This document shows, one piece after another, positions 3,393 to 26,190 of a DNA stretch of 26,324 nt. A program made the position numbers and the translations under genes. Under the pieces are notes generated by a model that saw only the letters and a list, made by a program, of their open reading frames with translations, made no database searches and had not been told where the DNA came from. The first letter of the stretch is position 1, and the number at the start of each line of letters is the position of its first letter. Origin of the DNA: a virus; the IMG/VR virus record IMGVR_UViG_3300028162_000004, positions 1-26,324 of that record; one strand, given 5' to 3'.

Positions 3393-6300
3393 TGTTTGGA
3401 GGCTCTTCATCCGATACTACCGCCCCTGTTGTTGCTGGAACAACGGAAGAGGACATTAGCACCAATCAGGAGGCTATCCCGATTCCCTATCTGACAGGCA
3501 CGCAGAAAGCCGCCGTGCGCTGGATTTCCGGCGTTTATAACCAGTACAATGTCGAAGTGCCTCTACCGGGCGGCAAGGGCGGCGATAAGAAAGGGGGCGG
3601 GCAGGGCACGGGTACCTACGACTATTTTGGAAGTATAGCCGGTGTGGTGTGTCTAGGTCAGGTCGATGAACTCGTAGCCATCGCCATAGACGGCGAGCAG
3701 GTTTGGGCACTTGGAAATGTGTTCCGTATCGAGCAGGCAAACCCCTTCGTCGGGTCGATTCCCGGAAAAGGCAATTTCCGTTTTTATTGGGGCACAGAAG
3801 ATCAGACGCTGGCTTCGAATTCTTTGTTGAAAGCAGCTAATAACAGCGCGGGAGAAGACCATCCAGATTATCGGGGGATAGCCTTCATTGAGTTTAAAGA
3901 CCTCCTATTCGGGCGGGAAAAAGTATCGGCACCAAGTATAGAGGTTGTAGTAAGTCGCGCGGCTACACAAGCACTGTGCTCTGGAACGGAGCTGGAATTG
4001 GACGACGGACAATCGAATCCGATCGCAACTATCGCCGAGTTAATGACGAATACTCGCTACGGGCTTGGAATGCCGACCACGCTTTTCGATGCTTCTACTT
4101 TCCAAACCACTGCCGAGGCACTATACGCCCGTAAGGATTTGACGTTTTGTTCTCCGTTCCTGAATCAGCAAGCCAGCCTGCGAGAAGTAATCGCAGAAGT
4201 TTCGGCCATGACAGATTGTTTTTTGAAGTGGGACACGTCCCAAGCCAAAATCGTTGCTGGATATTGGGAGCACGGGGATACCCCCGACCTGACAGGCCTC
4301 GTTTCCATCGGGGAAGCCGACCTTACTGAAACTCCTGACTTCGACGCTAGCGGATGGAGCGGGATATCTACCGGTTGGGACATTACTTTTTCTGACCGCA
4401 CGCGCATGTACAAAGACTCGTCCGAGAAATATGACGACGTGAGTTTAATCGAGCTGACCGGCGAGCGCATCCGCGAGAATTTGAATCGACCGTATATCAC
4501 GCGCCGTAATCAAGCACTCGCACACGCTGCCGAGTGGGGAAAGACCGTAGCCCGCCCCTCGTTATCTGGCGAGATCGTTATACGCCGCCGCCGTGCGGCA
4601 CTGCTGACTGTCGGGGAGCTATTCAAACTGGATATCGACGTAGAGCCGGGCGGAGAGCAATTGATTCAGGTTTGCCGATGCTTGGAAAAATCAGCCGACC
4701 AGACAGGCTCTGTTACTGTTAAGTTTTCCGCTGAAACCAATTTGATTCCGTTATCGTACACGCCCGCCGTTGTCCCTTTCACGGATTCAAATACTTTCCC
4801 CGAGCCTGCTCAGTTCGCCTACGTGCGTCCGATTGAAATGCCGCCTGCGTTTGCGGATACGGAATACGGCATCGCCGTCCTAGCACAACGCGAAGACAAT
4901 CTGACCGTTGGATACAATGTCCTGTACGATAAAGCAGTGGACGGAGCGTTTACAAACATCGGAACGATTAGGTCTTTCGGCGTATGTGCTTCGTTATTGA
5001 ATCCTTACTTGAGCACGACTAAAGGAGCCGACGAAGCAGGATACGACCCCGCCACTAACCCCTTGATTCTGGATGTGCTGGATTCCAATACGATTGATCT
5101 CGCATCTATGCCGGACGACGTGGGACTAGACGGAGCTCGCGCCGACCAGTTTTTGCTGATCTTGGCAGAGCTGGACAACCGGGTTGTCAACGGCGATTTT
5201 TCTAACGGCACGACCGGCTGGTCGTTTACGCCCGGTAGCGGCACGCCCGCGCCGACTTTCTCGGCGGTCGATGGAGAGGGTGTCTGTATTAACAGCGACG
5301 TGTCCGGTACGGGGAGCACACTATCTATCGACTCGCAGAGCGTGTTAGCAGGCAAACGGTACGTTGTTACCTTCCGAGCGAAAACCGAAGTAGCCGGAGA
5401 CCTGATATATGCACAGGTGACTAACCAGCGAGACTCGGACGGTAGTTGGACTTGGGCTTCTTTCGACGGCATCGAAGCAGATAAGATCGACGGCGTTCCC
5501 GGTTCGACGGAGTGGACGACCTACACGATGGGAATTACTGCGACATACAGCACAGCTCTGCGCTTCTTGTTTATAGCTGATTTCAATAACGACGGCGGGA
5601 ACACTTGGATAGACAGCCTCCGGATAGTCGAGGAAACGAAGCCCATTAAGCTCGATGCTGACGGCTTTGCTATTACTGAAATACTTTCTGTGTCTGCTGT
5701 GTCGGTTGAGACGGAAGGCACCCGGACGATTCAGGCTCTGCGGGGTCGTTTCTCTACTGGCACCCGCAATTTCAGCTCAGGCGCAGAAGCGTGGCTTGTG
5801 CGACGTGCATCAGTCAAGGTGTTCACGCACGAGGACTTCGCTACTGAGGCGACTGCTGAATCGCCGATTTATTTTAAGACCGAGCCTTACAATATCTTTA
5901 AGACGCGAGACATCGCTGACGACGGTTCGGTAGAATTTACTTTCGCGACGGCTCGTTTCTTCGCTCCTAAAATAGCGTTCGACACTCTGCCCGTTCTAGG
6001 CCCTTATGTCGGTTCTGATTATGTGGTGTCCGGTGTGATTACAGACCAAGACGGCGATTTATCTTCGTGGTCGCTGTCTTATATCGACACAGCCGGAAAC
6101 GAAACCGTAGTCGCAGGCAGCCCAATCGACCCGACGACTTCTTTTGCTTTCTCCGTTCCGATTAAGTTCCCCATCGCCGGAACCTTCGACATCGTTGTCC
6201 GTGCTAAAGATTCGACGACTTTTATCGACAGCTACGTGGAAGAGCGCGTGACGAAGACCGCCTCGGTAGCTACTTCAGTGGTCGGCGTACCTACGACTAT

Positions 6301-12924: not shown

Positions 12925-15432
12925 CTATTCCTCTCCCGTTAATTCTTCGATTTCAATTTCTTCCGTGTTGTCTTCCTCTTCGACAGCTTCCGGTTCCCAA
13001 GGAATCAACTTCCCATTTTCCCAAACCGGTTCGGCGGCTTTGTACCACCGACGCATCGTACACGCGACGGCTTTGCTGACAATATCCGGAGTAACGACGC
13101 GGAACTGTTCTTCCATGATCGACGCGACTTTAGCCAGCCGCTCGGTCGTGTATTCGTCGTCGAGTATCTCCCCGGCCACTTCGTCGTGAATGAAGAGAGC
13201 AGGCCAAACGCTCCCCGCCAGACTCCCGACCGAACATTCCTTCATCACCGCTGCGAGAGCCGTTAAAGCCCCGTCAGCCGAGATGCCTTGAAGTGCCTGA
13301 CCGTTGGCGCAGGCGCAGTAGTCACACTTCGCCCTGTGCAATCCCAGCGGAGTGTCGTAGGCGTAATAGGTGCGCTTCGAGAACTTGCCTTCGTCGTCCT
13401 CGACGAAATCCGGTTCGTTGATTCTGTCCCAGCACTCTTTGTTGACGTAATTTAGGTACTGCTTCATTTCAGGATAGGTATCAAAAAATACGTCACGTAG
13501 CAGTTCTGCCGTTTTTAAATCCACGGTAACGCCGTAGGTAGCCTTGGCATAAGCGACGAAGGTGCGCGGGCCTAGACCCCCCGGATACCCGAGACCCGTA
13601 GGCTTGGCGAACTTCCGATAGTGCTTAAAGAAATCGCCCCATGTCGCGCCTTCCTTAATGAGCTGGAATTGTGGCGAGGAACACGGCTCGTTTGACAGCA
13701 GTTCGCCGATCTGTTGCAGTATGGAGAAGCGAGCGTCCTTTTCGTCCTCGAAGCCCTCGGCGGCGTCTGCGGCTTCTTTGAAGGTGTCATCGAGCTTGTA
13801 AGCAATCTGCGCCCCTAGAAAGGCGTGTGTGTCTACTCCGGCGTTGATTTTATCAGCAAGAACCGAATGTCCGAATAAATTAAGGCAAACCTGCGCTGCC
13901 GTGCAGAGTTCCATACCGCTATAGTCAATCGAGAACAGCACGCGTCCCGGCGCGGGTATCACGCAAGGACGGATGCGAGGATCGACCTGCTGGCCGTTCC
14001 AAGACGGGTAGAGCTTCGAGGCGTACGACGAGGTGCGTCCGGTGCGTTTCAGCGGAGAGAAGCAGGCGTGTATGCGTTCGGCGGGGGCTTTGCCGTAATA
14101 CTTACTGGCCTGTTCCTCTTCGGTAGCCGGTGCGGGATAGCCGGGTATCGCGCCGTACATGTTCGGAAGGTAGGACGTAACGATTTTCTCGATGCGCTTC
14201 CGTTCGGCGTACTTCGCTATAACGGGGTCGCAGTCCTGAAAGTTCGCCATCCATTCCTTATTGGCTTTCAGCTTCCACTTGTCGGGCAAGCAACGGTCGT
14301 ATCCTTCGGCTGGCGGCTTATCGGAATCGGCGGCGAGTTGTCGAAGAGCCTCGACGACAGCCTCGGTTTTAATCTGGTGCATCCCCTCGATGAAGTCGTC
14401 CTTAATGCCTTCCTGTTTCAGATTAGCGAGCGTGGCTTTCGCCGCCCACGCTTCGCACTTTCCATCTAGCGCGAGTTTCCAGATACGGTCGTGCAGAGTG
14501 ATTATGGAAGTGGAAGCCTTCGTCGCTTCCTTCATCTTCACCGGACAGTTGCACTCGACCTTTTTTCCCTTTTTAAAATCAAGGTGTGATTTATGTCCTC
14601 GGCATGTTTCGAGATGCTCCTTAGTACCTTTGGCGTAGGGCTGCGGGGGAAGGGCAGGAATGACAATCCCTGCCTCGACGAGAGGCTGAACCAGCTCCGG
14701 CGCGTTGTAGAGGTCTTCAAACTCCTTCGTTACGGCAAGCACCCGTTCAGGGTCGAGGAGGTTGCCTTGCAATTCGAGTAGCCGCAAGGCGAAGTGGACG
14801 CGGGTGCGGAAGGTCGCCTGAGTGAACGGGTCGTAGCCGGTGCTCTCAATAACCTTCTTGCGCCGGATTTCCTGCTCCAGAAACACGAGGCCGGTGTACT
14901 TGGCGTCGTCCATCGCGTAGTTGCGATAGTGCTCCGGCCACTGCTCCACAGGATACTCTTTAACGATGCTGTATGTAAGCCGGGCGGAATCCGTCGCTTC
15001 CTTGGCTTCTTTGATGTCGATGCCAAGGTAATCTTTTACCAGTGCGTCAAGGCCGTAGAAAATTTTACGGTTCATACCCCCGTCTTCCACTACGTCGATA
15101 TTGCCGGAGACCGTAAGGTTAATCAACATTTCGCGGAGCATCGTATCGTGGATACGGTCGGCGTAGAGAGCCTGCCAGATCAAAGGCAGTAAGGTCGGCT
15201 CGTAGCGGGAGATGATAGACAGGTCGTAAGCTACGTTCTGCCCGATCAGGTGCGTGTCTGGGTCTTCGAGCAAAGCACGGTAGGTAGCGAGCGTGTCGTC
15301 CCTGTCGAGATGCCCGATAATAGCTACGTCCTTCGTCTGGAGATCATAGAAAGTCGAGCAGATTAAATCAGGGGCGAGGTTGCCGGGGCCTATCAGGTCG
15401 GTTTCGGTATCGAACGCGATATAGTTAGCCAT
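12925..15432 (-). CDS. polA: Family A DNA polymerase with 3'-5' exonuclease domain
   Basis: 835 residues from the ATG at 15432 (SD AAGGAAATTAAA, directly before MANYIAFDTETD). A longer open frame to 15636 overlaps a small upstream gene and is not part of it. Exonuclease motifs: D8/E10 in FDTETD, N66/D70 in GQNVAYD, and YAMDDAKY at about 165. Polymerase motif A is SIDYSGMEL at about residue 502, motif B is RKFAKPTGLGYPGG at about 605-618, and motif C is IHDE at about 748. There is no 5' nuclease domain, as in most phage family A polymerases. In motif B the position equal to E. coli Phe762 is Leu, and the Tyr766 position is Gly. A Cys/His-rich insert (about residues 345-370: C, H, H, C, C) lies between the exonuclease and polymerase parts. 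This is the replicative enzyme of the phage. Confidence 0.93.
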   Translation of the reverse strand: MANYIAFDTETDLIGPGNLAPDLICSTFYDLQTKDVAIIGHLDRDDTLATYRALLEDPDTHLIGQNVAYDLSIISRYEPTLLPLIWQALYADRIHDTMLREMLINLTVSGNIDVVEDGGMNRKIFYGLDALVKDYLGIDIKEAKEATDSARLTYSIVKEYPVEQWPEHYRNYAMDDAKYTGLVFLEQEIRRKKVIESTGYDPFTQATFRTRVHFALRLLELQGNLLDPERVLAVTKEFEDLYNAPELVQPLVEAGIVIPALPPQPYAKGTKEHLETCRGHKSHLDFKKGKKVECNCPVKMKEATKASTSIITLHDRIWKLALDGKCEAWAAKATLANLKQEGIKDDFIEGMHQIKTEAVVEALRQLAADSDKPPAEGYDRCLPDKWKLKANKEWMANFQDCDPVIAKYAERKRIEKIVTSYLPNMYGAIPGYPAPATEEEQASKYYGKAPAERIHACFSPLKRTGRTSSYASKLYPSWNGQQVDPRIRPCVIPAPGRVLFSIDYSGMELCTAAQVCLNLFGHSVLADKINAGVDTHAFLGAQIAYKLDDTFKEAADAAEGFEDEKDARFSILQQIGELLSNEPCSSPQFQLIKEGATWGDFFKHYRKFAKPTGLGYPGGLGPRTFVAYAKATYGVTVDLKTAELLRDVFFDTYPEMKQYLNYVNKECWDRINEPDFVEDDEGKFSKRTYYAYDTPLGLHRAKCDYCACANGQALQGISADGALTALAAVMKECSVGSLAGSVWPALFIHDEVAGEILDDEYTTERLAKVASIMEEQFRVVTPDIVSKAVACTMRRWYKAAEPVWENGKLIPWEPEAVEEEDNTEEIEIEELTGEE

Positions 15433-16988: not shown

Positions 16989-17192
16989 TTAATTCCTTTC
17001 TAATACTTTTCTCAGCACGTCCGCTTCTAGTTCGAGCTTCCTTTTTTGATCGCCGAAAATCGAGGCGCGAGGGCTTAATTTATCTTCGTCGGCGAGCAGC
17101 CACGCTGTTATTTTTTCTTCTGAGAGCATATACGGCACCTTTCTTTTTATACTTCCTGCTTCATTAATTTGGCTTTTAGTGGGTTCTGTCAT
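16989..17192 (-). CDS. Small hypothetical protein (67 aa)
   Basis: 67 residues from the ATG at 17192, which overlaps the helicase stop as ATGA with GAGGGGGAAGT upstream; the open frame extends further up, but those codons lie inside the helicase gene. The protein has an N-terminal polar stretch (MTEPTKSQINEAGSIKRK), then MLSEEKITAWLLADEDKLSP, and ends in a helix DQKRKLELEADVLRKVLERN. It is probably all-helical. No family recognised. Confidence 0.6.
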   Translation of the reverse strand: MTEPTKSQINEAGSIKRKVPYMLSEEKITAWLLADEDKLSPRASIFGDQKRKLELEADVLRKVLERN

Positions 17193-19312
17193 ACTTCCCC
17201 CTCGAACCGTTCCTTCAGTAATTCCTGACCTTCCTTGTCCAAATAACGCGCTTCCGTGCCCCACTGCCGTAGCACAGCATAAGGGACGACCGTAGGCTTA
17301 AAGGTGTACGTCCCGTAAATCAAGAGCTGTTTATTGCCGATCGTCTGGTGAATATAGGCAGCGTCGTTCAGCGTCGCGCCGAAGGTTATCATATCGAACT
17401 CGGTCGTATGGCAAGTTGTCGCGTGTACTTCGTCGCGTTCCTGCCCGGCTCGGTTCGTGCGCCCTAAAGACTGCTCCGCTAGAATCGCGTCTCGCGGCCA
17501 CTGAAGATAATACGAGTGTCCGAAGTGTTGTAGGTTCAGGCCGGTGGACTTCGAGCCAAGAGAAGCTACCGTAACGCGGCGGCGATTTTCAGGCGCGATG
17601 ATTGCACGGTCGGCAACTTTCCCGGCAGGACAGTACAGCGCGTCGATTCCGGCTTCTATGAGTGCTTCCATAATCCAGCGACCGACCTCCTGATGGTAGA
17701 CCCAGATTAGAAGCCCCTCGCCCTTGTTCTCAGCTTTAAATTGTTTCACCCATTCGACACACGCCCGAATCTTGTAATCACAGACCCGTACGGCACGCCC
17801 GTCGCGCTCGATGCGCCCGTCGAAATCAGCGGCTTTCATCAGCCCCCAGTACGTGTAGAGAAGCTCCCCGACGTTCTTCCCGCCGTGGTTGTGCATATCC
17901 AGACCTATGAGATGCGGCGTGTCTAAGCCTGCCTTGGCGTGCGACTGTATCCACTGCCGGAGCTGCTTCGCATAGTCTTGGTGCAGAGTGTGAAATTCCT
18001 GCGAGCGTTCCAGCAGTATCTTAGCCTCTGGGATAGTGATACCCTTACGCTCGGCGAGCTTCTCTTCGGTAGGCCAGAACAGCTCGTTGTAAAACCCCGC
18101 GCCCTCGATCTCGTAACGCCATTTCCAGATGTGCATTGCATGTTCGATTTCGTCCCCGTTCGGGGTAAGCCACTCGTTCGTGATTTTGGCTATAAGCCTC
18201 TCGACGGCGTTCTGCCCTTCGCACTTCTCGAAATTCGGGACGGCGTTATTGTCGAAGAGCTGGCTTGCCCACGCCGCGCCGTTCACGGACGTAACGACAC
18301 CGGGGCAGGTCTCCAGCCGCTTCTTATACGCCTTCCGGAAGCCCATAAGCCCGTGCTCGAACTGCTCGTTAGGAAAATTCTGCTGCGCCCAGTTCACCAG
18401 AGGCATAATCGGGCCGGTCTTCGGTCGGTTGTCGTTCCGGTAATCGGACATATTGGAAGCCTGAGAATCAATCAGGGCAGACCACGCCTCGGCGATCACC
18501 GGAGCGTTGGGCAGGAAGTTGTTATTCTTGAGCGCAGCGCGAGCGAGGTAGTGATAATCTGCGGGGGACTTGCGGGTAATTGTACCGGACAGACAAATGA
18601 TCTCGGGGTTATGTTTATTGACGTACTCCCTGAACCGTTTCGCGCGGGCTGAGTTACGGGCACCGGATACGTTATGCGCCTCGTCACAGATAATGCAGGT
18701 CGGCTCGATGTCTTCGAGAATCTCGGAGGCGTCCTTCGAGGACATCATGGAATACGTCGCGACGTAAAGCCCCTTCTTGTTGCTCTTGGCGAGCAGGCGG
18801 CGGTAATTGGGCGTGTGCCCGGCGAGGACGTGGACGTGCAGATTAAAGTCGCGAAGCCACTTGCGGTACTGTTGCAGGTCGTGCTCGACAAGCTGAATCA
18901 GCACCGGAGACGGGACGATTAGGAGAATCTTGTGCTTGCCCTTCTGAAAGGCTTCGTTCGCTATCATCAGGGAAGTGAGTGTCTTGCCCCCTCCGACCGC
19001 GATAGGAAGGAACGCGCCGTCGAAATCATAGTAGGCGGCGATAGCGGCAGCCTGCTCGCGGAAGAGCCTGTGCTTCGGGGAGGCGTTGTAGAAATCGCTC
19101 GCCAGATACTTCCAGCTTATCATGTCGATTTCTTCTTTGGTCAGCGGCTCCTGAATCGGAAGCGCGACAATACGCCGGACTTCGGAAGCGATATTATCCT
19201 CGGCCTTCTGCTGCATTCTCGTCAGGGACTTGACGGGAGACAGGGCGGCAGGGGAGACCGGCGCGGGGGTCGCGGCGGCTCGTCGGTGTAACTGGGAGAA
19301 AGAGAGGGCCAT
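17189..19312 (-). CDS. Superfamily 2 (SNF2/DEAH-like) helicase
   Basis: 707 residues; ATG overlaps the methyltransferase stop as TAATG. Helicase motifs in order: Q-like region HRLFREQAAAIAAY (81-94), Walker A GGGKT (107-111), motif Ia LIVPSPVLIQ (131-140), Walker B DEAH (210-213), motif III SGT (242-244), motif V-like GSKSTGLNLQHF, and motif VI SLGRTNRAGQ (about 615-625). An insert of about 300 residues separates the two RecA-like lobes. The EQSLGRTNRAGQ form of motif VI is typical of phage SNF2-type and DEAD/DEAH translocases acting on double-stranded DNA. Likely role: unwinding or fork remodelling in phage replication or recombination. The N-terminal 35 residues are Ala/Pro-rich and probably disordered. 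Confidence 0.88.
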   Translation of the reverse strand: MALSFSQLHRRAAATPAPVSPAALSPVKSLTRMQQKAEDNIASEVRRIVALPIQEPLTKEEIDMISWKYLASDFYNASPKHRLFREQAAAIAAYYDFDGAFLPIAVGGGKTLTSLMIANEAFQKGKHKILLIVPSPVLIQLVEHDLQQYRKWLRDFNLHVHVLAGHTPNYRRLLAKSNKKGLYVATYSMMSSKDASEILEDIEPTCIICDEAHNVSGARNSARAKRFREYVNKHNPEIICLSGTITRKSPADYHYLARAALKNNNFLPNAPVIAEAWSALIDSQASNMSDYRNDNRPKTGPIMPLVNWAQQNFPNEQFEHGLMGFRKAYKKRLETCPGVVTSVNGAAWASQLFDNNAVPNFEKCEGQNAVERLIAKITNEWLTPNGDEIEHAMHIWKWRYEIEGAGFYNELFWPTEEKLAERKGITIPEAKILLERSQEFHTLHQDYAKQLRQWIQSHAKAGLDTPHLIGLDMHNHGGKNVGELLYTYWGLMKAADFDGRIERDGRAVRVCDYKIRACVEWVKQFKAENKGEGLLIWVYHQEVGRWIMEALIEAGIDALYCPAGKVADRAIIAPENRRRVTVASLGSKSTGLNLQHFGHSYYLQWPRDAILAEQSLGRTNRAGQERDEVHATTCHTTEFDMITFGATLNDAAYIHQTIGNKQLLIYGTYTFKPTVVPYAVLRQWGTEARYLDKEGQELLKERFEGEV

Positions 19313-20364
19313 TACTTTTTCTCCGCAATCAATTTAACACGCGCGGCAATTAAACCTATATAATTAGGATTTAGTTCGCAAAGAACGGCATCCCGCCCGT
19401 TTTTTACAGACACGCCTGCCGTAGTGCCACTTCCTCCAAACGGGTCGAGAACGGTTCCGCCAGCCGGACAACCAGCAAGGATGCAAGGCTCTATCAAATC
19501 GGAAGGGAAGGTGGCGAAGTGTGCGCCCTTGTACGGCTTCGTGGTGACTGTCCAGACGGAGCGTCGGTTGCGCTTTCCATCATCTCCTGTTCCACATCTT
19601 CCAAGATTTGTGGGTGCTCTGCCTACGTATGCAGATTCTTGTGCTTCTGACTTCTTGCTCGATTTGTGTTTTACGTTTGGAGCAACGGCATCCTCCTTAA
19701 TCGCCTCGTTATCAAAATAATACTTCGCCGATTTACTTAGCAGAAATATGTATTCATGAGCCTTCGTGCATCGGTCGGTAACGCTTTCAGGCATCGGATT
19801 CGGTTTGTGCCAGATAATGTCCTGCCGCAGATACCATCCGTCTTGCTGAAGGGCGAAAGCAACCCGCCAAGGGATGCCGATTAGGTCTTTTGGTTTGAGA
19901 CCTATGGTGTCCGCTTTCATCCCTTTGCTGTTACCAACGTCGCCAACCTTGCCATCTGGCACCTGATACCCGCGGTTTGCCGCGTAGCTATCCCCCAAAT
20001 TCAGCCACAGCGTACCGTCATCACGCAGAACCCGCTTCACTTCGCGGAATACCTCGACCAGCTTTTTAACGAAGGCATCCGGCGTTTCCTCCAAACCAAT
20101 CTGACCGTCACATCCGTAATCACGAAGTCCGAAGTAGGGCGGTGATGTTACGCAGGTGTTTATACATTCGTCCGGAAGTGTCTTGAGTGATTCGATGCAA
20201 TCACCCGATAATACAGTGTACTCTGCTTTATTAAGTTGTGATTCGCAGTAAAGAACTTCTGCGTCGCATTCTCTATCTACCGGACATTCGGCGTTCTCGC
20301 AGCGCATGGGCTGTGTGTGCCCGTCGCCTACGATAGAGCCTCCGCAATTAGGGCATGTTTTCAT
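19312..20364 (-). CDS. Beta-class DNA methyltransferase with N-terminal zinc ribbon
   Basis: 350 residues from ATG at 20364 (SD GGAAGAGGCTT); it begins inside the preceding small gene. Residues 4-27 form a zinc-ribbon pattern (CPNC...CENAEC). The methyltransferase part has the catalytic motif TSPPYFGLRDYG at 73-84 and the AdoMet-binding motif LDPFGGSGTT near residue 315. Catalytic motif before AdoMet motif is the beta order (N6-adenine or N4-cytosine). The TSPPY form is more often seen in N4-cytosine enzymes, but the base cannot be settled from sequence. GTLWLNLGDSYA and GIPWRVAFALQQDGW are typical of this family. No restriction endonuclease is adjacent, so this is a solitary phage enzyme, probably protecting DNA from host restriction or marking it. 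Confidence 0.88.
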   Translation of the reverse strand: MKTCPNCGGSIVGDGHTQPMRCENAECPVDRECDAEVLYCESQLNKAEYTVLSGDCIESLKTLPDECINTCVTSPPYFGLRDYGCDGQIGLEETPDAFVKKLVEVFREVKRVLRDDGTLWLNLGDSYAANRGYQVPDGKVGDVGNSKGMKADTIGLKPKDLIGIPWRVAFALQQDGWYLRQDIIWHKPNPMPESVTDRCTKAHEYIFLLSKSAKYYFDNEAIKEDAVAPNVKHKSSKKSEAQESAYVGRAPTNLGRCGTGDDGKRNRRSVWTVTTKPYKGAHFATFPSDLIEPCILAGCPAGGTVLDPFGGSGTTAGVSVKNGRDAVLCELNPNYIGLIAARVKLIAEKK

Positions 20365-20518
20365 AAGCCTCTTCCATGCGAAGGTATTCCAGCACCTGTT
20401 CAATAAGGGCGATACGTTCCTTAACCGGCTCTTTAGGCAAAGACTGCATTACAGCAGTGCATTGCTTATCAAATTCATCGGGGATGTACTGCGCTGCTTT
20501 TAATTTACTTATGTCCAC
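20348..20518 (-). CDS. Small helical hypothetical protein (56 aa, GTG start)
   Basis: 56 codons from GTG at 20518 to TAA at 20348; the SD AAAGGAG lies seven bases ahead. It overlaps the methyltransferase start by 17 bp, consistent with translational coupling. The protein (MDISKLKAAQYIPDEFDKQC, then AVMQSLPKEPVKERIALIEQ, ending MEEAYENMP) should form two or three helices. Family unknown. It accounts for the gap between neighbouring genes. Confidence 0.6.
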   Translation of the reverse strand: MDISKLKAAQYIPDEFDKQCTAVMQSLPKEPVKERIALIEQVLEYLRMEEAYENMP

Positions 20519-20708: not shown

Positions 20709-21067
20709 TTCATTTCCTCCCTGACTTTTTCCCAAATCCCTTCACTGTCGCCCTGCCCTGCTTTATCAAAGCCGTAGTGCAAAATCAGCACCGCTTCCCG
20801 TTCGCCGAGCGACTTCTTAAACCGCTTCTCGTAAATCTTCCCGTAGTGCTGGATATAGGCTACCGCGATCTCGAAACTCTTTTCGTCGTGGAGCCTGTCC
20901 GAGAGACGGTAATCTTTACTTGTGAACGTGTTTACGTCGTGCACGAGCCATGTAGGGAGTAAAAGCACCCCCGCTTCCCCGCGCCCTCCTCGGGCGTGTT
21001 CGTCGAAAGCCGTCTTGACTTCGGCTACCGCGTAAAGGAGGGCGTAAAGGGAAAGAGGAGTTAGCAT
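20705..21067 (-). CDS. Possible lysozyme-fold protein, function uncertain
   Basis: 120 residues from the ATG at 21067 (SD GGAGAGTGTGGT); it overlaps the end of the C5-methyltransferase gene by seven bases. The segments LYALLYAVAEVKTAF, then LLLPTWLVHDVN, AYIQHYGKIYEKRFKKSL and VREEMK follow the order of a phage lysozyme-like/transglycosylase family. In that family a catalytic Glu near the N-terminus is followed by a GPYQI-type strand, then an AY..HYG..YEKR.GK helix. Here the ES.G catalytic context is not preserved (AEVKTAF) and the Asn-Gly-Gly loop is replaced by LHYGFDKAGQG, so enzymatic activity is doubtful. Placement among methyltransferases is odd for a lysis gene. The assignment is a weak inference. 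Confidence 0.35.
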   Translation of the reverse strand: MLTPLSLYALLYAVAEVKTAFDEHARGGRGEAGVLLLPTWLVHDVNTFTSKDYRLSDRLHDEKSFEIAVAYIQHYGKIYEKRFKKSLGEREAVLILHYGFDKAGQGDSEGIWEKVREEMK

Positions 21068-21834
21068 ACCACACTCTCCATTCCTGCAAAAATCCAAAAA
21101 GGAATAACCGGAGTGATTGAGTTGCCCAGAGCTAAATACCTGCGTCCGTCCAACCTGCCGGGAATCCCATCGCTTTCTCGTATTCCTCCGGCATTAGTTT
21201 CCGTAATCTCAACGAGGCAGGAGGACAATCGCTCAAGCGAGACGCCTCCTTTCCACGGCAGCAACATCGGGAGAACATCTTCTGCCCCTCTACTGCGTAT
21301 AACCTGTCCGCGCTTTTCTGCGTAATTAAGTACCGCGTCGGCGCGTCCGGGTTCAGGATGTCCGACAATGTATGCTCTTTTCCTGCGACAAGCGCATCCA
21401 AAATTCTGTGAATCAAAGATTCTGTGTGACCACTCATAAGCGAACATCTCCTGTTTAACTGTTTCCATATGTTTAACGACTTGAGGCACATTCTCGATAA
21501 CTACCCATTCAGGGTCGATTTCATTTATCAATCGTGCTAATTCCCAAAAAAGCCCGCTATGTTCTCCGTCTAGGTGTTTATGTGATCCATGCGCTGCTTG
21601 CGATAAATCGGTGCAGGGAAACCCTCCGGTGATTAAATCAACACCGATGAAATCGCGAAAAAGCTCGCCCGACATTTCTTTAATATCGCCGTAGTTTGGT
21701 ATCTCTGGAAAATGTTTAGCAAGTACAGTACAAGCAAAGGGGTCTATCTCTGAAAAGCCGACGGTATTTATCCCGTTGAGCTTCGCTGCGATAGTAAATC
21801 CGCCGATCCCGCTAAATAAATCAAGGTGTTGCAT
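21061..21834 (-). CDS. dcm: C5-cytosine DNA methyltransferase
   Basis: 257 residues; excellent SD AAAGGAGG before ATG. Motif I DLFSGIGGF (5-13), motif IV GGFPCTDLS with catalytic Cys74, motif VI ENV with Glu114, motif VIII-like FGCACRRKRAYIVG (about 145-158; usually FG.PQ.R.R), and motif X GNSITP (about 236-241) all occur in the standard order. The target-recognition region between VIII and X is short, about 75 residues, so the whole protein is smaller than typical bacterial enzymes. It methylates C5 of cytosine at an unknown short site. A GC-rich hairpin sits between the nuclease gene and its SD. There is no partner endonuclease, so it is likely an anti-restriction enzyme. Confidence 0.9.
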   Translation of the reverse strand: MQHLDLFSGIGGFTIAAKLNGINTVGFSEIDPFACTVLAKHFPEIPNYGDIKEMSGELFRDFIGVDLITGGFPCTDLSQAAHGSHKHLDGEHSGLFWELARLINEIDPEWVVIENVPQVVKHMETVKQEMFAYEWSHRIFDSQNFGCACRRKRAYIVGHPEPGRADAVLNYAEKRGQVIRSRGAEDVLPMLLPWKGGVSLERLSSCLVEITETNAGGIRESDGIPGRLDGRRYLALGNSITPVIPFWIFAGMESVVC

Positions 21835-21881: not shown

Positions 21882-23699
21882 TTATTGACCCGGCTCACCG
21901 ATAACGACAGAAGCGTAGGCTTCCAGCGCGAAGATAAGCACCTGATCGTCCGAGCCTTTCGGCACGTTGACGGCTTCGATAATACTGTTCCCGATCAACT
22001 CCGCCCAGCGAGGCGCGTTGGCGTTAATCATATCGCGGCGGGTGAACACCGGGATAGAATAGTAACTATCCGAAGGCGTACCGGCTTCGCGTGCGATTTT
22101 CAGAATCTCGTCCGCCACAGCCTCCATGAAATCGCGCAGGTAAATGACGTGATTCGCGTCGCCGAATTTGTACGACAGTCGTTTGCGGTTCTGGACGCGG
22201 TGGTAAGCTACCGTGAATCCTTTGCGCTCCGGCTCGTAGAACTGGTCGGCGAACTCCTTACGGGTAAGCCCTTCCTCGACCGGCTTAACGAGCGCGGCGG
22301 GGGCGGCAGGCACTGGAGGAACTGCCGGAGGAGGTAAGGACACCTTCGGCGGTGCTTCGACCTTGACGGCCATTTCCGGAGCCTTGACGACTACGGGCGG
22401 GACGACCTGCGCTACGACAGGGGCTTCTTCGACCGGGGCGTCTTTCAGGACGAACGACACAGAGCCGTCTTCGTTCGCTTCGATCTTGTAGGCGTCCGGC
22501 GAGGGTTTCCCTTCACGCTCAGACAGCACCTTGCACACGGAGCACGGGCGACCGCCGTTCATGCCGAGAACGAGGCTCTTGTTATCGGGGCCGGTACAGA
22601 CCGGGCATGACTCGCTGTACCATGGGGCTTGCTGGCGAGGCGTGTCCGATACGGGCACGGCAGCGACGGCTACCGGCGCGGGGGCGGCTACCTGAACGGG
22701 AGCCGGTACGGACGGGACGGGAACGGGCGTCCCGCTGCTCGCGGCGGCGGCGAGTGCTTTTTTACGATTTAACTCTGCTACTAGTGACATTTTTCTTTCT
22801 CCTTCTTTTGACCCGCTCTCGTTCATCGAGGCGAGGATATTACTGTGTTCTTCTGCTTTGGCTTCGACGGAACTCCCGTCGATTCTAGCCTTATACTCTC
22901 TGCAAGATTCGCGACCTAAACATATCTGCAAAAACGGGCAACCCCCGTACGCATTACACGCGCTCATTTTATCTTCCGGCATCGGTACGTCATGTACTTC
23001 TTTAGCGTTCTTTGAATAAAGCACCATGTCATTTACCACGGGCAGTATTTCCTTATCCCAGTATTCCTGTAACTGTTCCTTTGTTTTTTCGACTTCGATT
23101 ACTTTAACGGCGGGGTCTTCGATGTCTTTCCTGAAAAGGTTATAGCGGAGCCAGAGCGTCGGCTGATCGTAAACGCCCGTGGCGTAGAGTGACTGCCCGT
23201 AGGCGTTCATCGCTACGGCTCTGCCGAGCTTCGCCTTACCGTAATACTTGAAGTTGCCGCAGAATTTATGGTCCTGAACGTGCCCTACAGCAAACGAAAG
23301 GTAGTCGATGAATCCCGAGAACCGTACCTTAACGCCGTGGAACTCGCCAATGTCGTATTTGATAGGATATTCGGTTTGTCCGTCCGGTAGCCGGGTGAGG
23401 ACGCCTTCGGTAATGCCTTTATCAATCAGCGTTTTAACAAGCACCTGATCCGTTTCATTGATGGCAAAACCGGTCGGTTGACTGGTAAAGCGGTTATACT
23501 GCTTTTCCCAGCCTTCAGGGTAAAGCGGCTCGCTCTTATTAAACCGTTCGCAGACTCCGTGCCCGATGTCACCGAGCAGTGTGTTCGTGCCCTGCTTCTC
23601 CGGAAGGCCGAGGACGTGCTTTAGCCACCAAGAGCGGTAGCAGGTCTTCGCCCGGTCGATCTGCGAAGGAGAGATTTTAAGTAGGGGGGTCGTTGGCAT
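21882..23699 (-). CDS. RecB/Cas4-like Fe-S nuclease fused to zinc-ribbon C-terminal half
   Basis: 605 residues; ATG directly follows the previous stop. Residues 1-270 are a PD-(D/E)XK nuclease: SPSQID.AKTCYRSWW with Cys20, GDIGHGVCERF with His47 and Glu51, GFIDYL with Asp132, QDHKF with Asp143 and Lys145, and the QSLY motif at 169-172. Cys248, 254, 260 and 266 (CNAYGGCPFLQIC, then RESC), with Cys20, suggest an iron-sulfur cluster as in Cas4 and AddB. After a hinge, residues 304-605 comprise a Pro/Ala/Val-rich linker, a zinc ribbon (Cys365, 368, 386, 389), a second Pro-rich linker and a final domain of about 135 residues I do not recognise. An in-frame ATG with an ideal SD sits exactly at the junction. 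The nuclease would resect double-stranded ends for recombination or process replication ends. Confidence 0.8.
   Translation of the reverse strand: MPTTPLLKISPSQIDRAKTCYRSWWLKHVLGLPEKQGTNTLLGDIGHGVCERFNKSEPLYPEGWEKQYNRFTSQPTGFAINETDQVLVKTLIDKGITEGVLTRLPDGQTEYPIKYDIGEFHGVKVRFSGFIDYLSFAVGHVQDHKFCGNFKYYGKAKLGRAVAMNAYGQSLYATGVYDQPTLWLRYNLFRKDIEDPAVKVIEVEKTKEQLQEYWDKEILPVVNDMVLYSKNAKEVHDVPMPEDKMSACNAYGGCPFLQICLGRESCREYKARIDGSSVEAKAEEHSNILASMNESGSKEGERKMSLVAELNRKKALAAAASSGTPVPVPSVPAPVQVAAPAPVAVAAVPVSDTPRQQAPWYSESCPVCTGPDNKSLVLGMNGGRPCSVCKVLSEREGKPSPDAYKIEANEDGSVSFVLKDAPVEEAPVVAQVVPPVVVKAPEMAVKVEAPPKVSLPPPAVPPVPAAPAALVKPVEEGLTRKEFADQFYEPERKGFTVAYHRVQNRKRLSYKFGDANHVIYLRDFMEAVADEILKIAREAGTPSDSYYSIPVFTRRDMINANAPRWAELIGNSIIEAVNVPKGSDDQVLIFALEAYASVVIGEPGQ
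22788..22804 (-). promoter_or_regulatory. Internal SD and in-frame start inside the nuclease gene
   Basis: Read leftward: AAGGAG (22804-22799), eight bases, ATG (22790-22788), Met304 of the nuclease frame. It would give a 302-residue protein beginning MSLVAELNRKKALAA, holding the zinc ribbon and the C-terminal domain without the nuclease. SD and spacing are as good as at any true start in the window. Confidence 0.5.
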
Positions 23700-24635
23700 T
23701 TAATCCGCCCTCGCCCATTTCCCGCGTTTCAATGTGTAGAACGTGTCTGCTTTGATTTTCTTACCATCTACTAACGCAGATTTTACAGAGATGCGATGTC
23801 CGTCTTTCCATTCAGCAAGGACAATAAAAGAACCTAAAGACGCTTTGGCTTTTCCTTCTATCCCAATTGAGATAGCTACCGACTCAACACCTTCCACCGA
23901 TGCGGCTGACCGAATGCCGGTGTTCGTAGCGGCTGACCGAATGCCGGTGTTCGTAGCGGCTGACCCAATGCCTGTGCTCGTAGCGGCTGAATAGTCGCCT
24001 GTGTTCGCAGCGGCTGAATAGTCGCCTGTGTTCGTAGCGGCTGACCGAATGCCTGTGTTCGTAGCGGCTGACCGAATGCCGGTGTTCGTAGCGGCTGACC
24101 GAATGCCGGTGTTCGTAGCGGCTGACCGAATGCCTGTGTTCGTAGCGGCTGACTGAGTGCCTGTGTTCGTAGCGACTGACTGGTAGCCGGTGTTCGTAGC
24201 GGCTGACTGAGTGCCTGTGTTCGTAGCGACTGACTGAGTGCCTGTGTTCGTAGCGGCTGACCGAATGCCGGTGTTCGTAGCGGCTGAATAGTCGCCTGTG
24301 TTGCTTTCTTTGTTATTTTTCCAATCGACCTTTGAAAATATAAAATCGACCGAGAGCTTAACCATTGCCTGAGTTGAAATAAATCCTTTAACCGTCAGTT
24401 TCTTGGAGACTCGTTTTGAATCTAATTCGGTTTCAGGGGAAACGCCTTCCGCCTCGATCTCGGCGAACTTGCTATCCGCTGGCGGGTAGTAGTTGAAAAT
24501 ATCAAGCGGGTTCTCGCAGAAATGAAAGCCTCTTTTACATAACTCAACGTCGCCTTCGTGTTCGTAGGTTTTGCCTACTTCAAACTGCATGCCGCGACAC
24601 TTCATATCCTTGTCGAATCCTTTATATCCCTTCAT
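23700..24635 (-). CDS. Nonapeptide-repeat protein, DUF7666-like N-terminus
   Basis: 311 residues; SD AAGGGAGTGCGCT. The N-terminus (MKGYKGFDKDMKCRGMQFEV, then CKRGFHFCENPLDIFNYYPP, residues 1-52) is a family I recognise from phages and prophages of many bacteria; its function is unknown. Residues about 111-245 are an array of 9-residue units SAATNTGXX, where XX is IR, TQ, YQ, DY or IG. Because the units are short, regular and Ala/Thr/Asn/Gly-rich they may build a beta-solenoid. The C-terminal 65 residues (GSFIVLAEWKDGHRISVKSA, then VDGKKIKADTFYTLKRGKW) are a conserved beta-rich cap. Copy number and the XX letters probably change by repeat slippage and recombination. The protein could display a variable surface or be a DNA mimic, but neither is shown by sequence. 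It lies between methyltransferase and nuclease genes. Confidence 0.7.
   Translation of the reverse strand: MKGYKGFDKDMKCRGMQFEVGKTYEHEGDVELCKRGFHFCENPLDIFNYYPPADSKFAEIEAEGVSPETELDSKRVSKKLTVKGFISTQAMVKLSVDFIFSKVDWKNNKESNTGDYSAATNTGIRSAATNTGTQSVATNTGTQSAATNTGYQSVATNTGTQSAATNTGIRSAATNTGIRSAATNTGIRSAATNTGIRSAATNTGDYSAAANTGDYSAATSTGIGSAATNTGIRSAATNTGIRSAASVEGVESVAISIGIEGKAKASLGSFIVLAEWKDGHRISVKSALVDGKKIKADTFYTLKRGKWARAD
23902..24306 (-). repeat. 27-bp tandem repeat array, about 15 units
   Basis: Fifteen head-to-tail 27-bp units inside the preceding gene encode SAATNTGXX. Most units are identical except the XX codons and a few third positions; the unit nearest 24306 is degenerate at its edge. There are no spacers, so it is not a CRISPR array. 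Three codon types for XX (IR, TQ/YQ, DY) recur in blocks, as expected from duplication of short runs. Confidence 0.9.
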
Positions 24636-24690: not shown

Positions 24691-24702
24691 TTCAACTTAT
24701 TT
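24691..24702 (-). promoter_or_regulatory. AAATAANTTGAA gene-end motif, copy 4 (N = G)
   Basis: AAATAAGTTGAA overlaps the last two codons and TGA stop of the second paralogous methyltransferase gene. It is followed by AAATAAAATT and the 56-bp gap before the repeat-protein gene. Role unknown. Confidence 0.45.
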
Positions 24703-25459
24703 CTTCGGTTAATTTTTCAGCGGCTAAAATTCGCGCTTCGGCTATTCTCTGACGAGCGATCTCAAAGTAACCGGGGTCTAGCTCGATTCCTACAAAATCT
24801 CTGTTAAGGTTCATGCAGGCGACTCCGGTTGTTCCGCTTCCCATCGTGAAATCAAGGACTGCCTCGCCTTCGTTGGTGTAGGTCTTGATTAGGTATTCCA
24901 TCAGGGCTACTGGTTTTTGGGTGGGGTGGAGATGGTCCTTATCTCTCTTAAGCCTGAGTGTAGTTAGTGGGTATCTTTCGCCCTTATTTATAGTGATTAT
25001 TTCATTGCCGAGCAGTTCAGTTGTCTTGGCATCTTTATTATAGTTGTCTGTGCTACCGCCCTTTTTACATGTGTATGGATTACCTGCTGTCATCTGGGGA
25101 TTATAAACCTTATGGTACCCTTTTTCACAAAACACGATTACGTCCTCATTGTTCTTTAGTGGGTACTTCTTTGCGTTAAGGAATCCAGTACCAGCCTCTT
25201 TAACCCATACCCAGCAATACTTAAACATCTTCATATTTGAAGCAATAAGCGTTGTCGTGAACGGCTGGCTTGCGGTCATAACAATCGCACCGTTCTTTTT
25301 CGTAACCCGCTTCAACTGCTCCCACATCGGCTCAAGCGGAATAATCGAGTCCCACTTGCAGGCCGTTGTTCCGTAGGGCGGGTCGGTCATTACCATGTCG
25401 ATGCTTCCGCTCTCAATCTCTTTCATCCGTTCTAGACAATCGCCTTGCATCAATCTCAT
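24692..25459 (-). CDS. Beta-class DNA methyltransferase, paralogue A
   Basis: 255 residues; ATG overlaps the previous stop (ATGA) with SD GAGGATGGA. The catalytic motif TDPPYGTTACKWD lies at about 25-37 and the AdoMet motif VLDFTMGSGTTGVA at about 203-216, the beta order of N6-adenine or N4-cytosine enzymes. KPVALMEYLIKTYTNEGEAV before motif I is a usual feature. The central recognition region (about 65-175) includes KEAGTGFLNAKKYPLKNNED and a Lys/Thr-rich stretch quite unlike the paralogue beside it. The two genes share nearly identical DNA at both ends (172 bp and 45 bp) but differ in the middle. A solitary enzyme, likely with its own target site. Confidence 0.88.
   Translation of the reverse strand: MRLMQGDCLERMKEIESGSIDMVMTDPPYGTTACKWDSIIPLEPMWEQLKRVTKKNGAIVMTASQPFTTTLIASNMKMFKYCWVWVKEAGTGFLNAKKYPLKNNEDVIVFCEKGYHKVYNPQMTAGNPYTCKKGGSTDNYNKDAKTTELLGNEIITINKGERYPLTTLRLKRDKDHLHPTQKPVALMEYLIKTYTNEGEAVLDFTMGSGTTGVACMNLNRDFVGIELDPGYFEIARQRIAEARILAAEKLTEEIS
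24759..24930. repeat. 172-bp shared block (copy in methyltransferase A)
   Basis: Matches 25505-25676 with 4 mismatches and no gaps, by hand comparison. It encodes the AdoMet-binding C-terminal third of both methyltransferases; only one mismatch changes the protein, Ala to Thr. Confidence 0.95.
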
Positions 25460-26190
25460 TCCATCCTCATTTCTTTTAAGGCAGATTCTATTCTCGCTTC
25501 TGCTATCTCAAAGTAACCGGGGTCTAGCTCGATTCCTACAAAATCTCTGTTAAGGTTCATGCAGGCGACTCCGGTTGTTCCGCTTCCCATCGTGAAATCA
25601 AGAACTGTCTCGCCTTCGTTGGTGTAGGTCTTGATTAAGTATTCCATCAGGGCTACTGGCTTTTGGGTGGGGTGGACGTTTTTACCTTTGCGGTTTGAGA
25701 ACTCAAGAAGCTGTGTTGGGCATCTTCCTCCGGTGTTTACAATATCGTGATCTCTCTGAGAACCGTAGCATTCACTGCCTTTATATCCTTTTCTTTTGCC
25801 CGTGTACGGCTCCCCTTTCGCTCTTTGCTGGTTATATGTAGGCTGTTTTTTGTAAAACACCAAAACGTCTTCAATGTTTTTAAGTGGCATTCGTTTTGCA
25901 TTTAACTGTCCTGTGTGTGGCTTCTTCCACGCCCATGAATATCGGAGCCACTCTGCGTTGGAAGCCCCGAGGACTGAGCTAAAGGGCTGAGTTGCCGTCA
26001 TCACAATCGCCCCGTTGGGCTTAATCACCCGCTTCAACTGCTCCCACATCGGCCCTAGCTGGATGATGCTGTCCCACTCACACGCTGTTGTTCCGTAGGG
26101 CGGGTCGGTCATTACCATGTCGATGCTTCCGTCAGGTAACTCCTTCATCTGCTCTAAACAATCGCCGTGAATTAAATAATGATCTGACAT
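25456..26190 (-). CDS. Beta-class DNA methyltransferase, paralogue B
   Basis: 244 residues; ATG has SD GGAGGGGGTATAAAA. Same layout as the neighbouring paralogue: MVMTDPPYGTTACEWDSII at about 23-41 and VLDFTMGSGTTGVACMNLNR near 194-213. The middle differs: AWKKPHTGQLNAKRMPLKNI, followed by basic PYTGKRKGYKGSECYGS and NRKGKNVHPTQKP. The N-terminal 45 bp around the catalytic motif are identical to the other gene. The pair probably arose by tandem duplication, then gained different target-recognition regions by exchange, with the conserved ends kept alike by recombination. The modified base and site are unknown. It precedes paralogue A in the same operon with an ATGA overlap. Confidence 0.88.
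   Translation of the reverse strand: MSDHYLIHGDCLEQMKELPDGSIDMVMTDPPYGTTACEWDSIIQLGPMWEQLKRVIKPNGAIVMTATQPFSSVLGASNAEWLRYSWAWKKPHTGQLNAKRMPLKNIEDVLVFYKKQPTYNQQRAKGEPYTGKRKGYKGSECYGSQRDHDIVNTGGRCPTQLLEFSNRKGKNVHPTQKPVALMEYLIKTYTNEGETVLDFTMGSGTTGVACMNLNRDFVGIELDPGYFEIAEARIESALKEMRME
25505..25676. repeat. 172-bp shared block (copy in methyltransferase B)
   Basis: Partner of 24759-24930. A second shared block of 45 bp is exact between 25365-25409 (gene A) and 26087-26131 (gene B). The stretches between the blocks, 434 bp in A and 410 bp in B, are much less alike. Confidence 0.95.

Follow-up and report, generated by a model that had tools for sequence, protein, structure and literature searches.

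A conserved internal start in a Cas4/RecB-like phage nuclease gene points to a second, C-terminal product

Does the gene for a fused phage nuclease yield one protein or two? The question arises in the window analyzed here, which is the entire virus record IMGVR_UViG_3300028162_000004 (26,324 bases; the record itself may be a fragment). A preliminary description of this DNA had pointed to an ATG codon (Met304) deep inside the nuclease gene, preceded by AAGGAG at an 8-nt spacing, and had proposed that both a full-length enzyme and a free C-terminal protein are made. The start codon, the Shine-Dalgarno (SD) sequence, and the 8-nt spacer are all present in the minus-strand junction, which reads TCAAAAGAAGGAGAAAGAAAAATGTCACTAGTAGCAGAG (Table 1).

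The N-terminal half of the encoded protein was characterized by family, fold, and motif searches. The Pfam family PDDEXK_1 covers residues 9-260 only (4.2e-11; 43.7 bits against a cut-off of 22) and was the single family assigned in the window protein and its homologues, apart from an additional Dna2 match in the relative L013. The same half matches the phrog_69 exonuclease in a PHROG search and the folds of RecE, AdnA, and Cas4 in a structure search. The PD-(D/E)XK motifs H47, D132, and D143-x-K145 are invariant in the homologue alignment, as are, in alignment A8, one N-terminal and three C-terminal cysteines (C20, C248, C254, and C260 in the window) that probably hold an Fe-S cluster. Since both the PD-(D/E)XK core and the four cysteines are present, we assign the window protein to the Cas4/RecB-like Fe-S PD-(D/E)XK nucleases. 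A Pfam scan of the neighboring ORFs revealed a helicase, a PolA, and methyltransferases, and no Cas1 or Cas2 that would indicate a CRISPR context for a Cas4 protein, within a record that may be incomplete.

Neither the complete protein nor its separate halves retrieved relatives in direct searches of INPHARED or IMG/VR, and none were found in IMG/VR for the window helicase. The successful route led from the portal to the polymerase and from there to a DNA pattern encoding KPTGLG[YF]PGG, a motif of the polymerase. Helicase and polymerase searches pointed to phage ctsHD2 (MW202816.1), in which a 'cas system-associated protein' of 596 aa shares its architecture and junction with the window protein (...AGAAGGAAGGATTGCACCCC-ATG-TCACTA...), and the polymerase search also yielded L013 and G004. 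The DNA pattern marks a group of 35 IMG/VR contigs, to which the family A polymerase of the window (12925-15432, minus strand) belongs, and the nuclease was present in 19 of the 33 contigs searched. The pattern was absent from the GTDB species genomes scanned and thus gave no clue to the host. The final set of homologues comprises 22 fused genes (the window's and 21 further) and one split pair (G034), which together provide 23 C-terminal halves. Identity of the nuclease halves is 30% at the median and 56% at most, so the homologues are not recent copies of one another. Two kinds of candidates were set aside: a polymerase-bearing contig with no nuclease match may be a fragment, and apparent separate C-terminal halves in G015, G027, and G029 are cut by contig ends and are uninformative on splitting.

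The preliminary description had placed Met304 exactly between the nuclease and a half built of a Pro/Ala linker and a zinc ribbon, and this placement agrees with the Pfam limits and with predicted disorder. In an AlphaFold model of the 605-aa protein, pLDDT drops below 50 at residues 278-308 and 320-352, with folded parts on either side, and the model thus puts Met304 at a domain junction. The tail that follows is composed of an amphipathic N-terminal peptide, a Pro/Ala linker, the zinc ribbon (CPVC...CSVC, C365-C389), a second linker, and an alpha/beta domain. In most homologues the tail likewise begins with MS or MG, a short basic amphipathic stretch, and a low-complexity linker.

Table 1. 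Positions of the nuclease gene, its predicted internal start, and its domains in the window
Feature	Position	Strand	Basis
Full-length 605-aa ORF, nuclease of the Cas4/RecB-like type with a fused C-terminal tail (putative DNA-binding)	21882..23699	-	ORF and homologues
Nuclease domain, residues 1-277	22869..23699	-	Pfam, invariant columns, fold match, well-folded model
Internal Shine-Dalgarno AAGGAG	22799..22804	-	Sequence; conserved in homologues
Internal ATG, Met304, predicted start of the short product	22788..22790	-	Start codon in 22/22 fused genes; GTG in split G034
In-frame ORF of the predicted free C-terminal protein (302 aa), begins MSLVAELNRKKAL	21882..22790	-	
Amphipathic peptide at the N-terminus of the short product, then Pro/Ala linker	22740..22790	-	
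Zinc ribbon CxxC-x17-CxxC: C365, C368, C386, C389	22533..22607	-	
C-terminal alpha/beta domain, ~100 aa, residues about 516-605	21885..22154	-	A9/A10 alignments; homologue model

The preliminary description had named full-length homologues without a conserved SD and ATG at this point as evidence against its proposal. Instead, a start codon stands at the junction in all 22 fused genes (21 ATG and, in L067, one GTG encoding Val), 25-51 codons downstream of the last Fe-S cysteine. In 16 of these genes it is preceded by an SD that matches over 5 nt or more, and in 18 over 4 nt or more, a conservation that strongly supports the predicted pair of products. The corresponding proportions for 242 internal ATGs located elsewhere in these genes were 3% and 17% (Fisher 3e-15 for at least 5 nt). 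A test independent of the choice of start codon, in which any ATG with an SD of at least 5 nt was counted inside a 60-codon stretch after the cysteines, gave 16 of 22 for the junction stretches compared to 5 of 152 for other stretches of the same genes (p=8e-14), and 0/22 for each of the other two frames at the junction. The gene therefore combines an SD and an in-frame start codon with a common stop and with retention in relatives, the features expected of two-polypeptide genes with an in-frame internal start.

Similar conservation could arise with no internal initiation at all, if selection acted on the peptide (KEG...MSL) or on a pause in translation at the domain boundary. KEG or EKG does recur ahead of Met in several homologues, and the SD is weak or absent in 6 of the 22 fused genes: L060, L062, L063, and L072 have no recognizable SD, and L066 and L067 have only 4-nt matches. 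However, the SD core AAGGAG occurs in all three codon phases over peptides as unlike as KEGERK, SQRSQN, QKETEE, and ILKEQD, whereas other internal ATGs lack the signal, and L067 carries Val in place of Met. Synonymous shuffling of the same peptides gave an expectation of 6.6 SDs of at least 5 nt against the 16 observed (P=2.6e-8), while the other internal ATGs showed no excess (8 observed, 13.5 expected). When duplex energy was compared per sequence with synonymous shuffles, the summed result was not significant (p=0.18). Judged from these sequences, the conserved feature is a nucleotide signal rather than a peptide, and with a true start used at the same point in the split relative described below, we regard the absence of internal initiation as highly improbable.

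Two further properties distinguish the junction codon from other positions in these genes. The second residue is Ser, Gly, or Thr in 21 of 22 cases, as expected for a true N-terminus; for the remaining internal Met codons the figure is 14% (p=2e-15). In addition, mRNA structure between -25 and +30 at the internal start is low in the homologues (median, 1.8th percentile of the own gene); in the window it is the weakest among the positions sampled in the gene, and it is also low in most of the four genes that lack a recognizable SD. The reading frame across the junction is kept in 22 of 23 homologues despite the variable distance from the last cysteine to the start (25-51 aa), which implies that the full-length product is under selection as well.

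The remaining homologue, G034, has the two-gene arrangement that the preliminary description had proposed to look for in related phages. Here the nuclease is a separate 294-aa gene ending in ACG-TGA, and the C-terminal half starts in another frame at a GTG that overlaps the nuclease stop (GTGA), with AAAGGA upstream. The encoded protein begins MSLFDSL... and continues with a zinc ribbon, RGRP, and the C-terminal domain. The start of this separate gene and the internal start of the fused genes occupy the same site. An arrangement of this kind is also what would be found if two coupled genes had been joined by loss of a stop codon, with the old start still firing and its short product irrelevant. 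Stand-alone nucleases exist in Arthrobacter phage Mimi and Caulobacter phage Kuura, whose phrog_69/phrog_1218 exonucleases have the same nuclease domain and the same type of Fe-S cysteines but, unlike the window gene, neither tail nor internal start. The homologue tree, examined for fusion versus fission, has one well-supported branch only. A functionless start would have decayed at a median identity of 30%, whereas the SD excess over the synonymous expectation, the low RNA structure, and the Ser/Gly/Thr at residue 2 have all persisted, and this makes a mere leftover of gene fusion very unlikely. We consider it highly probable that the phage of the window makes both the full-length enzyme and the free tail.

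What the tail might do was approached through its sequence features and gene context. The libraries searched contain no described relatives of the tail family: the tail returned no meaningful Pfam family, no PHROG family, no convincing solved-sequence match, and no known fold, and weak Pfam hits (PARP, TonB polyproline) were discarded as matches to the low-complexity linker. At E<=0.001 the C-terminal domain matched nothing in PDB or BFVD; a homologue model of it reached a pLDDT of 87 and a pTM of 0.77. An ssDNA-binding or recombinase-loading role for the tail, suggested in the preliminary description, found no backing, as Pfam, PHROG, PDB-sequence, and fold searches yielded no OB-fold, SSB, recombinase, or recombinase-mediator match. 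Tails are 189-342 aa long among the homologues. A zinc ribbon of the form CxxC...CxxC occurs in 18 of the 23 C-terminal halves, often as CxxCxGxG like that of DnaJ, and 14 of 23 tails (L055-L072, L069), the window tail not among them, carry an AT-hook-like GRP(K/R) immediately ahead of the C-terminal domain. Together, the zinc ribbon and the AT-hook-like motif suggest that the tail binds DNA. In the window, ctsHD2, and L013, the nuclease gene neighbors genes for an SNF2-type helicase and a family A polymerase. As the C-terminal domain has no known fold, the proposed role of the tail is drawn from the zinc ribbon, the AT-hook-like motif, and this context.

Several other features of the neighborhood were recorded. 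The first residues of the SNF2-type helicase (17189-19312, minus strand; also in L043, L046, and L020) form a short amphipathic peptide (MALSFSQLHRRAA; MSNPIKQKLAARNR in L046 and MTLSERLNARMQAA in L020). The free tail protein of these phages has a closely similar N-terminus (MSSVFAERLAARRA in G030), and the two could be a common docking peptide for one partner. In L013, a second similar peptide (MKELLARMVGKKTAAEP, 5732-5800) lies deeper in the linker, as though the N-terminal motif had been repeated. Four DNA methyltransferase genes are located within the 26 kb (19312-20403, 21061-21834, 24692-25459, and 25456-26190, all on the minus strand), three of the N6/N4 type and one of the C5 type; two of the N6/N4 genes are adjacent and alike, probably through tandem duplication. 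The DUF7666 protein (23700-24635, minus strand) contains many near-identical repeats IRSAATNTG. Its stop codon is followed without a gap by the ATG of the nuclease gene, which makes translational coupling between the two genes probable.

An alternative function for a free tail is that of an intragenic inhibitor, which would hold the full-length nuclease off until it is needed and thereby spare phage or host DNA. The closest documented PD-(D/E)XK precedent is of this kind: in the Rpn system an in-frame internal start within the nuclease gene gives rise to the C-terminal protein RpnS, which complexes with RpnL and blocks cleavage, and which also exists as a separate gene (PMC10327210). Both arrangements, internal start and separate gene, occur in the present homologues too. 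However, Rpn is a bacterial defense system with a small inhibitory RpnS (~5 kDa of helices), whereas the tails described here are large, carry zinc ribbons and AT-hook-like motifs, and belong to an Fe-S nuclease of a phage replication module. Pfam searches also found no Rpn N-terminal domain (COG5464/Transposase_31-type) in the window or the homologues, and the RpnS/DUF4351 domain matched 0 of the 23 C-terminal halves. In G034 the nuclease lacks a tail, and pairing between tails cannot be the inhibitory contact there. We therefore consider an inhibitory tail unlikely, and in our judgment its role would be complementary to that of the enzyme.

The reading that we prefer, and hold to be somewhat probable as a whole, is a dual-coding gene whose free tail acts as a DNA-binding, co-assembling subunit. 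Ribosomes initiating at the nuclease start would produce the full-length Fe-S PD-(D/E)XK nuclease, flexibly linked to the tail with its zinc ribbon and C-terminal domain, while other ribosomes initiating at the internal SD and ATG would produce the 302-aa tail alone. The free tail would then co-assemble with its counterpart in the full-length protein and would probably bind DNA or a replication partner of the phage, so that a few nuclease heads are carried by a larger DNA-bound complex in the replication/recombination module, beside the SNF2-type helicase and PolA. The size of the tail, its DNA-binding features, and the replication context favor a subunit in its own right, a role to which we give an even chance; co-assembly has precedents in the endolysins (PMC9430671) and Rpn (PMC10327210). 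Dosage control by two starts, co-assembly, and DNA binding are what we infer from the gene. A bolder version, which we put forward only tentatively, is that the tail is a new kind of protein in phage DNA metabolism, combining an uncharacterized C-terminal fold with a zinc ribbon and an AT-hook. It would form the bulk of a nuclease-helicase-polymerase complex, competition between the two start codons would control how much nuclease is made, and the scheme would be conserved throughout a deeply divergent group of phages.

The gene is annotated as encoding one protein (the 'cas system-associated protein' of ctsHD2), while its conservation points to two selected products. A DNA-recombination nuclease would join the few in-frame dual-coding genes on record, the split relative provides a natural control, and the gene lends itself to a direct and inexpensive test of how nuclease dosage is set in phages. 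Conservation of start codon and SD over distant metagenomic homologues can expose internal starts without experiments.

Among known systems, phage T7 gene 4 has an in-frame internal start in a DNA-replication enzyme and encodes the products 4A and 4B. The short T7 form keeps the enzyme and lacks the N-terminal zinc domain; in the gene described here the reverse applies, with the enzyme lost and the zinc-ribbon tail kept. Cas11 is likewise made from an in-frame start inside the gene for a large subunit, as a C-terminal subunit that joins the complex of the full-length protein (PMC11899642, PMC10212523), although it belongs to the CRISPR Cascade and the proteins are unrelated to the window nuclease. 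Two-polypeptide endolysins are also phage genes with in-frame overlapping ORFs, a common stop, and a short C-terminal binding part, and form heteromultimers in some cases (PMC9430671, PMC7098653); an active heteromultimer can depend on the short product (PMC9430671). These enzymes, however, serve lysis and cell-wall binding rather than DNA metabolism. In the open-access literature searched, we found no report of an internal start in a Cas4/RecB-like phage nuclease. In-frame internal starts and dual coding are already known; as judged from that literature, what is new here is this nuclease, its tail, and the conservation of the start between them.
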